Source: Candidatus Parcubacteria bacterium
GTDB taxonomy: Bacteria > Patescibacteriota > Patescibacteriia > PEXW01
Length of the DNA: 47,100 bases
Assembly (NCBI GenBank): GCA_003597955.1
Contig: QZJU01000005.1
Coordinates: 1 to 47,100, forward strand
Reading direction: 5' to 3'
Shown here: piece after piece, positions 37,800-44,045 of the stretch
How positions within the stretch are numbered: position 1 is the first letter of the stretch
Layout of the letters: every line of letters begins with the position of its first letter
Position numbers and translations under genes: made by a program
Notes under the pieces: generated by a model
Databases searched by the model: none
What the model was told of the DNA's origin: nothing
What the model saw: the letters and a program-made list of their open reading frames with translations, nothing else

Positions 37800-38162
37800 T
37801 CAAACGCCTTGAGATAAAGCCGGGATATACCGGGAATCAAAAGTGCCTTCGATGAAGCCCAATTTTCTGCCGCACTCATTTAATTCAACCCTGGCGGTTT
37901 CGCCGTTTAAGAGCGCTTTTTGGACATGGCCAGTTGGGCCGCAAAAGACGCTTTTTTCGCCGTCTTTATCTTGTGGCATGCCGCAGACCCGGCAGGCGTT
38001 TAATTCGAGTATTCCTTCACTCGGCGTGATAACGCGTCCAATCGTGATTTTGAATAGTTGGCACCGGTGGGGCAACTCCGCTTGCCGAGACTTGAAATCT
38101 GGATGCAATTTGATAGAGGAAATCAAATTGCCTTTTTCTGAATTTCTAGGGATCTTACACAT
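37800..38162 (-). CDS. Small Cys-containing hypothetical protein
   Basis: ATG at 38160-38162 with GGAG SD 6 nt upstream; ACRVCGMPQDKDGEKSVFCGPTGH; own terminator downstream. Confidence 0.7.
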   Translation of the reverse strand: MCKIPRNSEKGNLISSIKLHPDFKSRQAELPHRCQLFKITIGRVITPSEGILELNACRVCGMPQDKDGEKSVFCGPTGHVQKALLNGETARVELNECGRKLGFIEGTFDSRYIPALSQGV

Positions 38163-38168
38163 CAAATT

Positions 38169-38260
38169 CTCCGAAGAAAAAAGTTAGTTAGTCGGGTTTT
38201 TGTCTCACATTTTTCGGAGAACAGCGGTTAGGGTGAAAATTTCATCAATTACGCCTCCTT
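38169..38260 (-). promoter_or_regulatory. Candidate translational leader: mini-ORF MKFSP* plus SD-sequestering hairpin
   Basis: Minus strand: AAGGAGG (38254-38260) then ATGAAATTTTCACCCTAA (38245-38228); TTCGGAG at the CDS SD (38175-38169) complements CTCCGAA (38219-38213). Confidence 0.4.
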
Positions 38261-38539
38261 AAACTTTCCATGTTTAATATCCCCCCTGCAGCTTCTTTTT
38301 GAAGGCAGGATTAGAAGTTAAAAGTACGGCTCTTTTTTTGTGCTATCCGGTATTGGGTTTGCCTTTAAAAAAGGCGAGGATATGTTTAAAAAGAGCAGTT
38401 TTTTACTGTTTTCATTGTAAATCGTCAGCTTAGCTCGAGTCAAGCCTAATCGCAGTTAAGAAATCAAACATTTTTTTATCATTGTCATTCCGAACTTGTT
38501 TCGGAATCTTATTTGTGCGAGGGATGATGCAGAGCAAGG

Positions 38540-38690
38540 TTGCAATTTCTGGCGAGGCGAGCAAGCTCGCCACCTACACAATAATCATCCAAATGGTGCG
38601 CTGGCGCAGTGTAGAATACTTAGGTGAAGAGCTCCGCCTGCACCCGCTGACGCGGGGTTCGGTGGGCAGGTTGCTCGCCAGAAATCGCAA
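38540..38690. repeat. Inverted repeat (17-bp arms, 1 mismatch) flanking a GC-rich structured segment
   Basis: TTGCAATTTCTGGCGAG (38540-38556) versus CTCGCCAGAAATCGCAA (38674-38690). Confidence 0.7.
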
Positions 38691-38721
38691 GCACAGAGCT
38701 TGCTCAGCGGTCGAATACCAA

Positions 38722-40785
38722 TTATTCAGGATGCAAGGCTCGTCTTTTGGTCTCAACGATTTTTTTGAGCTCGGGCGTTTTTTGCAGTTCCGGGTCAGTA
38801 TTTAGAGTATTTTGAGCCGCGGCCCGGGTTTCTTCAACCAATTTTTGATCGTTAAGACGGGCGACTTTGAACGGCTCAAAGCCGCTCTGCCTTTCGCCCC
38901 ACAATTCGCCCGGGCCGCGGCGATTCAAATCCTCTTCGGCCAAGGCAAAACCATCTGCCAGTTTTGTCAACATACGCAAACGATCCAAAATTTCCGGATC
39001 AGTCGCTTCAGTGCTCAAATAACACACGCTCGGTTTGTCGCTCCGCCCAATCCGGCCGCGAAGCTGGTGTAATTGAGCCAAGCCAAAGCTGTCCGCGCCT
39101 TCGATTAACATTACTGTGGCATTGGGGACATCAATTCCCACTTCAACCACGGCCGTAGCCACCAAAACTGAAATTTTGCCCTCGGCAAAATCTGCCATGA
39201 CCCTTTCTTTTTTTTCGCTGGAGAGCTTGCCATGCAGCAAGCCCACCGGAGTTTGGCTAAAAGTTCCTTGGGTTAATTTTTGATATTCCTCAACCACGGA
39301 CTTAGCGCCGGTGGGATCAGTTTCAATTCGGGGACAAATGATAAAGGCCTGTTCGCCGGCTCCAACCCGCTCCAAAATTTTGGCGTAAGCCACCTCGCGG
39401 TTACGGTTGTCCAAAATAACGGTTTCAATTTTTTTGCGTTCTTTGGGCAAATGCGGGATTTCCGAGATGGCCAGGTCGCCCCAGACAGTCAAAGCCAAAG
39501 TCCGGGGAATGGGCGTGGCGGTCAAAGAAATAAAATGCGGAATGCCCATTGGGTTTTTGGAACGGAGAGCTTTTCTTTGCTCTACGCCAAAGCGGTGCTG
39601 TTCATCCACGATTACCAAAGCCAATTTGGCAAAAGTGACGGCTTTGGCGATAAGTGCGTGAGTGCCAATGACCAGATCAATTTCTCCCTGGCTAAGTTTT
39701 TTTAATAAAGCCGGCTTGCTTAAAGGCTTGGTTTCCAGGTTAGAAAGTCGGCGGGTGCGCGTAAAAAGCGCGACGCGGGTTTTAAACGGCGCGAGCAGTT
39801 TTTTTAGCTTTTCAAAATGCTGTTGCGCCAAAATTTCTGTGGGCGCCAAGTACGCGGTTTGAAAACCGGCTTTGGCCGCATTTAAAATGGCTATGGCCGC
39901 CACCACGGTTTTGCCCGAGCCCACATCGCCCTCCAAAAGCCGGTTCATGGGCTGGGCTTTGGCCATATCTTGCAGAATTTCCCAGGCCGAGCGTTTCTGC
40001 CCCGGGGTTAAAATAAACGGCAACTTTTGGACAAAACTTACAGTCTCCGGCTGGTTAAAAGGGATTTTAACGCCCGGACTTTTGGTCAATTTGGCTTTTT
40101 CCTGCAGAACCGCTAAATGCACGATCAGCAACTCCTCAAAAGCCAAGCGCCTTTTGGCCAGGCTGATGTCGGAAAAATTTTTGGGTTGGTGAAGTTTGGC
40201 TAAAGCCGGCGCGAAATCCAGAAGCCGGTGCTCATTTTTCAGTTCAGCGCTTAACAAATCCGGGAAATCCCTGACATTCGGCAGGGCTTGGTTTATGAAG
40301 TTGCGCAATTGTTTTTGAGTCAAGCCGTCAGTCAGAGGGTAGATGGGGATTAGGCCGGCGGCGTTTAAAGGGTTATCGCGTTTTTCCCAAGCCGGGTTCA
40401 TTAAAGTCGTACCAAAGTAGTTGTGCTCCACCTTGCCGGCCAGCCAAAGCACATCTCCCGGCTGCAGAATTTTTGCCAGATAGGGTTGGTTGAACCACAC
40501 GACTTTTAAAGAGCCGGTTTCATCAGCCACAATGGCTTCCACCACCAGCATGCGTTTTTTCCTCTGTGCGCGGCGGGAGCTAATCAGCTGCAATTTGCCT
40601 TTAACCGACACGGTGGAATTGCCTTTGATGTCGGAAATTTTTTCCACGCGCGTCAAATCTTCGTAGCGGAAAGGCAGGTGCCATAATAAATCCGCCACGG
40701 TTTGAATTTTCAGGCGTTTTAAGCGACTGGCCACAGCAGGGCCCACGCCCGCGAGTTCCATTATGTCGCTGTGCAAGGTTAGCAT
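38722..40785 (-). CDS. recG: ATP-dependent DNA helicase RecG
   Basis: Wedge/OB domain; LLEGDVGSGKTVVAAIA, VDEQHRFGVEQRKAL, TATPIPRTLAL, QLRGRIGRSD. Start MLTLHSDIMEL at 40785 preferred over the track start at 40890. Confidence 0.96.
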   Translation of the reverse strand: MLTLHSDIMELAGVGPAVASRLKRLKIQTVADLLWHLPFRYEDLTRVEKISDIKGNSTVSVKGKLQLISSRRAQRKKRMLVVEAIVADETGSLKVVWFNQPYLAKILQPGDVLWLAGKVEHNYFGTTLMNPAWEKRDNPLNAAGLIPIYPLTDGLTQKQLRNFINQALPNVRDFPDLLSAELKNEHRLLDFAPALAKLHQPKNFSDISLAKRRLAFEELLIVHLAVLQEKAKLTKSPGVKIPFNQPETVSFVQKLPFILTPGQKRSAWEILQDMAKAQPMNRLLEGDVGSGKTVVAAIAILNAAKAGFQTAYLAPTEILAQQHFEKLKKLLAPFKTRVALFTRTRRLSNLETKPLSKPALLKKLSQGEIDLVIGTHALIAKAVTFAKLALVIVDEQHRFGVEQRKALRSKNPMGIPHFISLTATPIPRTLALTVWGDLAISEIPHLPKERKKIETVILDNRNREVAYAKILERVGAGEQAFIICPRIETDPTGAKSVVEEYQKLTQGTFSQTPVGLLHGKLSSEKKERVMADFAEGKISVLVATAVVEVGIDVPNATVMLIEGADSFGLAQLHQLRGRIGRSDKPSVCYLSTEATDPEILDRLRMLTKLADGFALAEEDLNRRGPGELWGERQSGFEPFKVARLNDQKLVEETRAAAQNTLNTDPELQKTPELKKIVETKRRALHPE

Positions 40786-41059
40786 TATAATTTTTATTGA
40801 ATTGATGCAGGATTGATGAAGGTGACAGACCAGAAGTGAGTCCCGCAGCGTGGCGGTGGGAGAAGGATTCCCCGCCTGCCTCCCGTCCACTACGAGTCGC
40901 GTAGCGAATCGGGCTGGGCGCCAAAGCGAGTTCCTACCCGCCGTAGTACGGCGTACGCAGGCGGGCGACGGGCAGGGAACCTACGAGACCCGTGAAGGTC
41001 TAACGGTTTTTCCCGCGTCTAAAAAATTTATTTTTAAGAAGACGGGATCCCGCACCGGG

Positions 41060-41146
41060 CGGAGGCGGGAGGATTCGGACCTCCGATACCCTTGCAGGTA
41101 TAGCAGTTTTCAAGACTGCCCGATTAAACCACTCTCGCACGCCTCC
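41060..41146 (-). tRNA. tRNA-Ser(UGA)
   Basis: GGAGGCGTGCGAGAGTGGTTTAATCGGGCAGTCTTGAAAACTGCTATACCTGCAAGGGTATCGGAGGTCCGAATCCTCCCGCCTCCG; anticodon loop CTTGAAA, long variable arm, T-loop TCCGAAT (non-canonical C55), no encoded CCA. Confidence 0.85.
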
Positions 41147-41155
41147 GCCCGGTGC

Positions 41156-41196
41156 GGTGACAAGACCAGTGCCATAAACCACTCGGCCATCCCACC
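41156..41196 (-). pseudogene. 5'-half tRNA-Ser(UGA)-like fragment, broken in the anticodon
   Basis: GGTGGGATGGCCGAGTGGTTTATGGCACTGGTCTTG|TCACC. Confidence 0.7.
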
Positions 41197-41263
41197 ATGA
41201 GATTATTGTTTTCCCGGCGAAGCCGCCAGCCTTGCCGGCTAGGCAGGGACCCGGCTCTGCCGG

Positions 41264-41299
41264 GCAGACCGTCACTTTCAAACACTCAGGCACGTCTCC
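41264..41299 (-). pseudogene. 5'-half tRNA-Ser(GCU)-like fragment, broken in the anticodon
   Basis: GGAGACGTGCCTGAGTGTTTGAAAGTGACGGTCTGC|CCGG. Confidence 0.65.
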
Positions 41300-41343
41300 G
41301 TGAATTTAACGAGCCGCCGCCATGAACCATTCCGCCAACTCAC
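41300..41343 (-). pseudogene. 5'-half tRNA-like fragment (Ser(CGA)-like), broken in the anticodon
   Basis: GTGAGTTGGCGGAATGGTTCATGGCGGCGGCTCG|TTAAATTCAC; ends exactly where the next fragment begins. Confidence 0.5.
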
Positions 41344-41475
41344 TTATTTTAATATTGTTCGTTTTGTTGTATCGCAAAACTCTACTTACAACCTACAGGA
41401 AAAGCCAAAGGGTAGTCAAAAGACTTACTTTTAGAGGTAAGCCTTAAAACCAGAGTTTTAATTTAATCGTTTAGT

Positions 41476-42273
41476 TTATGCGGAACGGTTTCTAAAAATA
41501 TAAGACGCCGTCGGAATCGCAAAAACGATAAATCCAGTGCACCAGATAATTGCCAGCCAGGCGTGGTTGCCAACTGGCAGACCGAGCATCAAAGCGCGTA
41601 TTGCTTCAATAACATGAGTGATGGGTTGGTTTTCTGCAAATACCCGCAAACCATGAGGCATACTAGCAGTCGGGACAAACGCCGCGCTTGCAAAAGTGAG
41701 CGGAAAAACGATGAGAAAACTCATCCATTGCACTGCTTCAACGCTTTTTGCCAAGAGTCCCATGATGGCTGACAACCAAGAAAAAGCAAATGTGAATAAC
41801 AAGACAACGCCGACAATAATTAGCCATTCAATAAGTGAAGCCTGTGGTCGGAATCCCATAAGCAAGGCAACTCCAATCATGATTGCCGCAGAAACAACAT
41901 TGCGTGCTAAGTCAGCAGTCACATGGCCAGTCATCACCGCAGAGCTTACCATCGGAAGAGACTTAAAGCGGTCAATGATACCGCGTTTGATGTCTGTTGC
42001 GACGCTCAATGACGTGGTGGTTGCGCCAAACGCAGCCATTTGGATTAAAATGCCGGGCACAAGATAGTTGATGTACTTAATCCCACTGGTTTCAATGGCT
42101 CCGCCAAACACATAACCAAACAACAACATGAACATAACCGGCTGAATCGTCAGTCCCAAGAGTTGGTCAGGATTTTTAATGATGTGCTTTAAGCTGCGGA
42201 CTATGAGAATGCTGGTATCAGCTAAAGCGAGATACAATCCAGAATGTTTTTCTGTATGAAGTTCCTGCTGCAT
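41476..42273 (-). CDS. ABC-2 type permease (DrrB-like)
   Basis: Six hydrophobic segments; YLVPGILIQMAAFGATTTSLSVATDIKRGIIDRFKSLPM motif typical of DrrB-like permeases. Confidence 0.88.
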   Translation of the reverse strand: MQQELHTEKHSGLYLALADTSILIVRSLKHIIKNPDQLLGLTIQPVMFMLLFGYVFGGAIETSGIKYINYLVPGILIQMAAFGATTTSLSVATDIKRGIIDRFKSLPMVSSAVMTGHVTADLARNVVSAAIMIGVALLMGFRPQASLIEWLIIVGVVLLFTFAFSWLSAIMGLLAKSVEAVQWMSFLIVFPLTFASAAFVPTASMPHGLRVFAENQPITHVIEAIRALMLGLPVGNHAWLAIIWCTGFIVFAIPTASYIFRNRSA

Positions 42274-42277
42274 AGGA

Positions 42278-43249
42278 TTATTTCTTTTTTTCTACTTTTT
42301 CTTCTTCTTTTGCGACCTTGTGGCCGGTAAAATGCATAAACACATCATCAAGCGTCGGCTTATGAACAGACATGGCATCAATTTCTATTTTGGCAGCGCT
42401 TAATTTGTCTAGTACATTTTTTATTTCATTGACGCTCCCACCGGTGGGAACGCTGACGCTTCGCTCTTCTGTATTTTTTTGCAAACCATCCCGTTGCATA
42501 ATCTGAATCGCTTGTTCGAAATTACTGTTTTGTTCAATCACCATTTCAATTCGTTCCGTTCCAACTCGCCCCTTGAGTTCGCTTGAAGTGCCCTCGGCAA
42601 GAATTTTACCCTGATCGAGAACGGCAATCCGATCGGCAAGCTTGTCAGCTTCATCCAAATATTGTGTGGTAAGCAATATCGTAACGTCTTGTTGTGTGAG
42701 CTTGGTAATGATGTCCCACATGAGCATGCGGCTTCGAGGGTCAAGTCCAGTCGTTGGTTCATCAAGAAAAATAATCGGTGGAGTTGCTATGAGACTTAAG
42801 GCAAGATCAAGCCTGCGGCGCATACCCCCAGAATACGTTTTCACAGGCCGGTTTGCCGCTTCGGTTAGATCAAATTGTTCAAGTAATTCTTGCGCCCGCT
42901 TTTTTATGGCGGCCTTTGGTACATGATACAAACGGCCCATCATCTCTAAATTTTCTCTGCCGTTTAAAAATTCATCCACCGCTGCGTATTGTCCAGTTAA
43001 TCCAATGAGGCTACGGACTTTTTTGGGTTCGTGCGTGACGCTAAAGCCACCAACCATTGCTTCGCCGCCGTCAGGTTTTAAAAGAGTGCTTAAAATGCGA
43101 ATAGTCGTGGTTTTACCGGCACCGTTCGGGCCAAGCAAGGCTAAAATCTCAGCCCTTTTTACAGTCAGATCAATTCCTTTGAGAACTTCCAACTTTTTAA
43201 AAGATTTTTTTAGATTATGGATACTAATTGCGTCAATACTCTCCGGCAT
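42278..43249 (-). CDS. ABC transporter ATP-binding protein (DrrA-like)
   Basis: LLGPNGAGKTTTIRIL, TYSGGMRRRLDLALSL, IIFLDEPTTGLDPRSR, LLTTQYLDEADKLADRI. Confidence 0.95.
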   Translation of the reverse strand: MPESIDAISIHNLKKSFKKLEVLKGIDLTVKRAEILALLGPNGAGKTTTIRILSTLLKPDGGEAMVGGFSVTHEPKKVRSLIGLTGQYAAVDEFLNGRENLEMMGRLYHVPKAAIKKRAQELLEQFDLTEAANRPVKTYSGGMRRRLDLALSLIATPPIIFLDEPTTGLDPRSRMLMWDIITKLTQQDVTILLTTQYLDEADKLADRIAVLDQGKILAEGTSSELKGRVGTERIEMVIEQNSNFEQAIQIMQRDGLQKNTEERSVSVPTGGSVNEIKNVLDKLSAAKIEIDAMSVHKPTLDDVFMHFTGHKVAKEEEKVEKKK

Positions 43250-43461
43250 AGGTTAATATGGAGGTAAATATAAGAACATGCTTAACTATTACTACTTTGG
43301 TGTAGGTTTGGATATTATACGGTTTTTTTGGGGCCTGGCAAGACTAACTGGATTACTGAGGTTTAAAAGCATTTCCGCCCAGGCGCCCCAATGTTCTTTG
43401 GCGCCAAGGCTTTAGCCGTGGGGACTCCACTTAAAAGTTATTAATTTTTTTGACAGAAATA

Positions 43462-43490
43462 AAGACGCTTTCTGTAAAAAAAAGCGTCTT
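43462..43490 (-). terminator. Putative terminator hairpin
   Basis: AAGACGCTTT / AAAGCGTCTT perfect 10-bp stem downstream of the minus-strand gene at 43503-44045. Confidence 0.6.
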
Positions 43491-43502
43491 TTGGCAATGT
43501 GC

Positions 43503-44045
43503 TTACCAGTAAAACTCTTCTAAGTAGCCTTTGTCTTTTTCCCAGGCCACATGACTGAATTTCCAATCCAGAATCTGGGCGCCGTTCTGGTCGCCATTAT
43601 TTTGCAAGTCAGGCGTTGACCACCAGAAAGGGCCGCTTTGGCCAATTTCATAAATTACTATCCGTTTAAGTCCCAAGGTTTGCTGGTTGTTATGGGGATT
43701 TATTCCCGGGTAATTATGCAGCTTGACTGAAGCAAATATTAAAGGTGCGGTTTCGCCGGCTGAAACTATGTGCCGGGCGGCACTGCCGTCTACAAACTCC
43801 AGCTCAACCAGCCGCAAGTATTTGGCGGGCTGTTCCAAGATGGAAACTTGATCAGCCGCTTCAGTTTCAGATGCCTTTCCCATTGAGGCGCCTTGGGACT
43901 TGAGCGTGGATTCGCGATAACAGTTGAGCGAAAGCATTATGAGAATGAATACGGACATCAGCGCGCAACCACCCCAATTTTTGTTTGTTGATTTAAACAC
44001 TTTTAACCTCCAGTTTTGGTTTTTGGTTTTAAAAAAATTTATCAA
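43503..44045 (-). CDS. Hypothetical membrane-anchored/secreted protein
   Basis: Single N-terminal hydrophobic segment (ALMSVFILIMLSLNCY); start codon uncertain. Confidence 0.6.
   Translation of the reverse strand: MINFFKTKNQNWRLKVFKSTNKNWGGCALMSVFILIMLSLNCYRESTLKSQGASMGKASETEAADQVSILEQPAKYLRLVELEFVDGSAARHIVSAGETAPLIFASVKLHNYPGINPHNNQQTLGLKRIVIYEIGQSGPFWWSTPDLQNNGDQNGAQILDWKFSHVAWEKDKGYLEEFYW

Follow-up and report, generated by a model that had tools for sequence, protein, structure and literature searches.

A working tRNA-Ser(UGA) gene inside the anticodon loop of a dead one suggests tRNA-replacing cassettes in a Candidatus Parcubacteria genome

The stretch of DNA analysed here (47,100 nucleotides; hereafter the window) carries an intact tRNA-Ser(UGA) gene on its minus strand, the sole gene for this anticodon found in the source genome. 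It is surrounded by pieces of dead tRNA-Ser genes: three 5' halves upstream (F1, F2, and F3), and, downstream, the remainder of the gene to which F3 once belonged (Table 1). The initial annotation had described the three minus-strand fragments, had placed them before the intact gene (41147–41057), and had located each break two bases into the anticodon. All of this was borne out, except that F1 proper spans 41343–41310, the end at 41300 given earlier adding ten bases that lie beyond the break. The upstream halves were thus correctly seen, whereas the downstream 3' half (41010–40977 and 40870–40851) had been overlooked.

Table 1. Features of the tRNA-Ser(UGA) locus, in minus-strand order, with positions numbered along the window
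Feature	Position	Strand	Basis
F1, 5' half of dead tRNA-Ser, ends CTCG	41310..41343	-	best match tRNA-Ser 5' halves
F2, 5' half of dead tRNA-Ser, ends CTGC	41264..41299	-	best match tRNA-Ser
Hairpins at the F2 break: CCCGGCAGAGCCGGG; TCCCTGCC...GCCGGGA	41264-41250; 41249-41212	-	sequence; same kind as 30-nt double hairpins
F3, 5' half (nt 1-35) of outer tRNA-Ser(UGA), ends CTTG	41161..41196	-	best match tRNA-Ser(UGA); joining test
Left inverted repeat of insert, TCACCGCACCGGGC	41147..41160	-	complement of downstream GCCCGGTGCGGGA, one base bulged
Inner tRNA-Ser(UGA), intact	41057..41147	-	ARAGORN; Rfam 50.9 bits
Right inverted repeat GCCCGGTGCGGGA, then second palindromic unit	41011..41060	-	sequence
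Outer tRNA-Ser(UGA) 3' half, nt 36 to T loop	40977..41010	-	similarity score; joining test
Palindrome-rich insertion in outer T loop	40871..40976	-	sequence between GGTTC and GAATCC
Outer tRNA-Ser 3' end: T-arm 3' strand, acceptor TCCCACC, GCCA	40851..40870	-	joined tRNA

Kinship of the fragments with tRNA-Ser was assessed against 201 tRNA 5' halves from other genomes, and each fragment exceeded all 200 of its shuffles. Scores were 52 for F3 (shuffle maximum 31), 48 for F2 (maximum 32), and 36 for F1 (maximum 33); the margin for F1 is the narrowest of the three, making it the weakest tRNA-Ser match and one that only barely clears its shuffles. F3 closely resembles working Ser(UGA) genes of other genomes. 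The proposal that the fragments represent three isoacceptors (CGA, GCU, and UGA) is not secure, because it was based on two bases in each case and the best matches of F1–F3 are all Ser(UGA) genes; taken literally, three isoacceptors would count against the cassette reading given below, as they would not fit a single target. The exact junction at the F2 break is ambiguous, base 41264 being common to the end of F2 and the first hairpin. Sequence following the break had also been thought to re-pair with the acceptor 5' strand in two fragments. For F1 this stands, in that AATTCAC (41306–41300) can pair with GTGAGTT and is possibly F1's own acceptor 3' strand; for F3 it does not, since the true partner of GGTGGGA is not the adjacent TGTCACC but the 3' acceptor strand TCCCACC, followed by GCCA, past the intact tRNA within 40870–40851.

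That partner belongs to a gene split in two by an insert containing the intact tRNA. The inverted repeat formed by TCACCGCACCGGGC and GCCCGGTGCGGGA at the ends of this insert lengthens the acceptor stem of the inner tRNA-Ser(UGA), and GCCCGGTGCGGGA is followed by a second palindromic unit, TCCCGTCTTC...AGACGCGGGA (TCCCG...CGGGA), at 41047–41011. The outer 3' half gave a similarity (DN3') score of 40, compared with a maximum of 30 among 150 control windows. When F3 was joined to the downstream 3' half with the two inserts removed, the product was called as a tRNA-Ser(UGA) with a seven-pair acceptor stem, TCCCACC pairing with GGTGGGA at 7/7 positions; joining F3 to random or shuffled 3' parts gave 2/1000 tRNA calls. 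F3 and the 3' half therefore make up a normal tRNA-Ser(UGA), and a working tRNA-Ser(UGA) gene sits inside the anticodon loop of an older, dead one, between nucleotides 35 and 36 (35^36). The presence of the intact inner gene speaks against a split or spliced tRNA here. As for a group I intron in the insert, no Rfam match was found in 38000–44000 even at E <= 1, and weak Rfam matches in the window (CRISPR-DR23, Ysr141, and a plastid UTR) fell below cut-offs and were taken as chance.

The inner gene represents a different tRNA-Ser lineage from the outer one, since only 22/36 bases, counted from the sequences, are identical between F3 and the inner 5' half. At a locus in another genome (L075 in G009) the arrangement is the other way about, with a working gene of the F3 type (GGTGGGATGG...) and an outer remnant of the GGAGGCG type (GGGAGGCG...). 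Such alternation between the two loci agrees better with one tRNA lineage having replaced another than with simple duplication. F1 and F2 are most simply read as the 5' halves of residents older still.

Nested genes of this kind recur at other tRNAs. The source genome holds Ala(UGC) in Ala(UGC), Tyr in Tyr, and Ala(GGC) in Ala(GGC), and its working Val(GAC) and Glu genes are adjoined by dead copies that contain hairpins; within the same genus and family nesting was also found at Trp, Thr, Cys, and Met. For Ser(UGA), Ala(UGC), Tyr, Trp, and Ala(GGC), the joined outer halves form a complete tRNA with the anticodon of the inner gene. The two outer Ala halves match each other in the anticodon stem (CCACA/TGTGG, versus CCGCG/CGCGG in the inner gene) and therefore were once one gene. 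The orientation of same-isoacceptor halves was counted at 138 tRNA loci, among which tRNA-Ser is over-represented, many of them having been drawn by a search with the window. Halves lay the nested way in 52 instances (19 upstream 5' halves and 33 downstream 3' halves) and the wrong way round in 9 (5 and 4). The same 35^36 break occurs in many unrelated anticodons. A search for the junction of CTTG with TCCCGC was uninformative, as the 27/287 genomes matched came close to the reversed-pattern control. We regard the nested-dead-tRNA architecture as well supported, and an assembly artefact, which had been named as a possible undoing of the earlier observation, is unlikely because independent genomes of the class show the same architecture.

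What lies between the broken and the intact copy in related genomes is commonly a gene for a small nuclease. The commonest form in relatives is a hairpin-broken tRNA 5' copy, a GIY-YIG gene of 80–100 amino acids, and an intact tRNA, in general of the same isoacceptor and sometimes followed by the outer copy's 3' half; the Pfam GIY-YIG assignment was obtained for a tRNA-linked nuclease. A 5' copy of the same tRNA precedes the nuclease gene at 37/48 loci (at a threshold passed by 1% of mismatched pairs), while the outer 3' half is still visible at only 14/48. One such locus (L258) reproduces the window arrangement with a nuclease added, comprising a Ser(UGA) half broken after CTTG, hairpins, a GIY-YIG gene, and an intact Ser(UGA). 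The source genome itself encodes 13 GIY-YIG genes, four of which have a tRNA no more than 60 bp away (Glu, Val, Leu, and Ser(CGA)). Among best matches from 24 genomes, 13/32 small GIY-YIG genes lay less than 100 bp from a tRNA and all 16/16 with a tRNA within 1500 bp were on its strand, compared with 0/6 UvrC-size GIY-YIG controls having a nearby tRNA.

The identity of the neighbouring tRNA also follows the nuclease. Homologues of a Glu-linked nuclease were within 150 bp of a tRNA in 27/30 cases, 17 of them Glu, and those of an Asn-linked nuclease in 26/30 (9 Asn, 7 Gln, and 6 Pro), its closest homologues being mostly beside Asn. Pooling the two queries, 53/60 homologues were within 150 bp of a tRNA, 53/53 of these on the same strand and 49/53 upstream of it. 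With a third query, taken phylum-wide, 18/30 homologues lay by a tRNA, all on the same strand, but the query's own link to Ser(UGA) was not kept; isoacceptor tracking is therefore clear only for the Glu- and Asn-linked queries, in which the isoacceptor clearly follows nuclease similarity.

No GIY-YIG gene or recognisable remnant of one was found at the window's tRNA-Ser locus, so that its assignment to homing cassettes rests on comparison. From the sequences compared, we consider it rather likely that loci of this kind are tRNA-replacing homing cassettes and that the window locus is an old, nuclease-less remnant of one. A GIY-YIG nuclease would cut resident tRNA genes that do not carry the cassette, and repair would copy the cassette into the cut gene, destroying the resident tRNA. 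The cassette's own tRNA would then take over the job of the destroyed resident, and loss of the cassette would therefore kill the cell. The nuclease gene would later decay and a further round could nest inside; the window locus would be what is left of up to three rounds, its nuclease gene gone. Both nuclease-driven homing and its past action at the window locus are what we infer from these arrangements, and linkage of nuclease and tRNA does not by itself prove drive. A broader proposition, for which the sequences leave the balance about even, is that throughout the phylum isoacceptor-specific GIY-YIG nucleases destroy the resident tRNA gene while their own tRNA serves as the only antidote, and that nested dead tRNAs would be the fossil record of this process.

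Partial tandem duplication would account for the halves without a mobile cassette, in that slippage or recombination around tRNA hairpins would copy a 5' half upstream and a 3' half downstream, the copies then decaying. Tandem repeats are plain at one Ser(UGA) locus (L052 in G086), where 5' halves with hairpin and flank form a near-identical array just before the intact gene, apparently through a recent event, and segB-associated tandem amplification of a tRNA region is known from phage T6 (PMC13096335). At some loci (L258 and L209) the inner and outer 5' halves are identical, as plain tandem duplication would also give. Nonetheless, we hold this explanation to be unlikely: pairing is between the two outer halves, not between either of them and the inner gene, both in the F3 acceptor stem and in the outer Ala anticodon stem, the orientation of halves is strongly one-sided, and the inner and outer genes of the window derive from different tRNA lineages.

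The elements that break the outer copies are 30 nt long and consist of a pair of 15-nt hairpins; they occur in the D arm as well as in the anticodon arm, at 35^36 in 11 cases. In 24 distinct elements, 99.7% of cells are paired, a percentage biased upward because the elements were chosen as double hairpins; the diversity of compensated pairs does carry weight, with compensatory change in 10/12 pairs and 0/500 shuffles reaching this. Two adjacent stem-loops preserved by compensatory change are present in the source genome and its relatives, the window having only imperfect versions at F2, and within one genome similar elements stand in different tRNA loops. The compensated pairing and the insertion sites would suit a reading in which the double hairpins are themselves the mobile agent, entering tRNA loops as structured DNA, perhaps by way of a RAYT/Y1 transposase, and able to carry a tRNA between their arms with the GIY-YIG genes as passengers. 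The insert in the window has hairpin-like inverted-repeat ends, and the source genome (G000) has three intact-looking Y1_Tnp (RAYT-like) open reading frames (C2:47884, C12:14413, and C17:37127), although a role for these in hairpin movement is conjecture. One of the three is ~500 bp from tRNA-Ser(CGA). The double hairpins are not a general repeat, however, since all 4/4 found in a 397-kb sample of the source genome are near tRNAs. GC-rich hairpins in general are mildly enriched near tRNAs (39/324, versus ~7% of sequence), so the tRNA linkage is a property of the specific double hairpins and not of GC-rich hairpins as such. As the nuclease genes moreover track the isoacceptor, hairpins as the driving agent strike us as quite improbable; they may be mobile elements in their own right, products of repair, or a guard against re-cutting or misfolding of the leader.

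Anticodon loops are classical integration sites, and the initial annotation had read the fragments as scars of serial integration, in which elements with a tyrosine integrase had recombined within the anticodon loop and had later disappeared, leaving att half-sites. Insertion scars at the anticodon hold in outline, but the integrase probably does not. Neither an integrase gene nor att direct repeats were found at the window locus, the halves are nested with an intact tRNA between two of them, the same position has been struck in many anticodons, and relatives, which it had been proposed to check for an integrated element, carry a small GIY-YIG nuclease gene inside the interrupted tRNA. The agent at the window locus was thus probably not a tyrosine integrase, and integrase scars as a full account are very improbable. 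Mini-tRNA-like RNAs or tRNA mimics, the other suggestion of the initial annotation, found no support, and a role for the 5' halves as functional small RNAs, as mimics, or as pieces of split tRNAs joined by splicing is scarcely credible: a fold of F1 with its own acceptor strand is possible, but intact genes serve all four Ser anticodons in the source genome (Ser(GGA), Ser(CGA), Ser(GCU), and the single Ser(UGA)), no further copies of F1–F3 were found elsewhere in it, and the outer copies are decayed, with mismatches and with hairpin insertions that differ from genome to genome.

No prior description of tRNA cassettes of the kind proposed here was found in the open-access literature searched. 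The closest precedent, related in principle, is SegB of phages T4 and T6, a free-standing GIY-YIG homing endonuclease encoded among tRNA genes; in T4, the small gene lies beside the tRNA genes and its product acts on the tRNA region and brings about its preferred inheritance (PMC2988022). Whereas SegB lies between tRNA genes, the cassettes pair a nuclease with a tRNA inside a disrupted copy of the same tRNA, occur in bacterial chromosomes in many isoacceptor-linked types, and have hairpin-broken leader copies; the window locus differs further in being without a nuclease. In form, the hairpins can be likened to the double-hairpin elements (DHEs) of fungal mitochondria, two adjacent GC-rich stem-loops that are considered mobile (PMC4618339), although those described here consist of two 15-nt hairpins within 30 nt and reside in bacterial tRNA copies. 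Insertions at the tops or bases of stem-loops have been reported in CPR rRNA genes, some encoding GIY-YIG proteins outside introns, in a study that does not mention tRNA (PMC11270868). The rRNA insertions are believed to be cut out of the transcript; at the tRNA loci it is a second, complete gene that restores function. Group I introns in tRNA anticodon loops occupy the same loop as the window insert, but the latter holds a whole tRNA and needs no splicing. In archaea and algae, tRNA genes that are split, permuted, or disrupted are likewise broken near the anticodon (PMC4390854, PMC3978253), but the window has an intact gene and its halves look dead.

Several further oddities of tRNA genes were observed in the genomes surveyed. 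A second kind of scar, seen 3' of intact tRNA genes at six loci (L043, L046, L071, L072, L075, and L125), is a second copy of the tRNA's final ~20 nt, from T loop to CCA, that lies ~110–190 nt downstream beyond a palindromic spacer; it looks like a T-loop insertion with a restored 3' end. In the source genome, a tRNA-Arg(UCU) gene flanked by inverted repeats (L096:7625-7800, on C20) appears to have entered the loop of a hairpin that resembles a terminator (GAGAGC...GCTCTCGGGGTTTTT). Also in the source genome, the anticodon of a tRNA-Thr(GGT) gene (L001:1834-2106, on C19) is interrupted by ~197 nt, with an interrupted 5' half just upstream. This insert gave no Rfam intron match, and no intact Thr(GGT) was present among the tRNAs found in the source genome; it is possibly a real but unrecognised intron. 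Elsewhere (L236:1755-2047), an Asn-type GIY-YIG gene is directly followed by a tRNA-Asn(GUU) gene whose anticodon is interrupted by a group I intron; the Rfam match of this intron, at 48.5 bits and E 1.7e-11, falls just short of the cut-off of 50.

Taken as tRNA-replacing homing cassettes, these loci suggest that tRNA genes in these tiny-genome bacteria behave like selfish cassettes. If this is true, single-copy tRNA genes that very small genomes cannot do without would be constantly attacked and replaced by a homing element that renders itself essential to the cell, and the odd contexts of tRNA genes in these genomes would be explained. The nested dead copies would then make it possible to read how tRNA genes were turned over and horizontally replaced, and the small nucleases would form a large family divided according to the tRNA they target.
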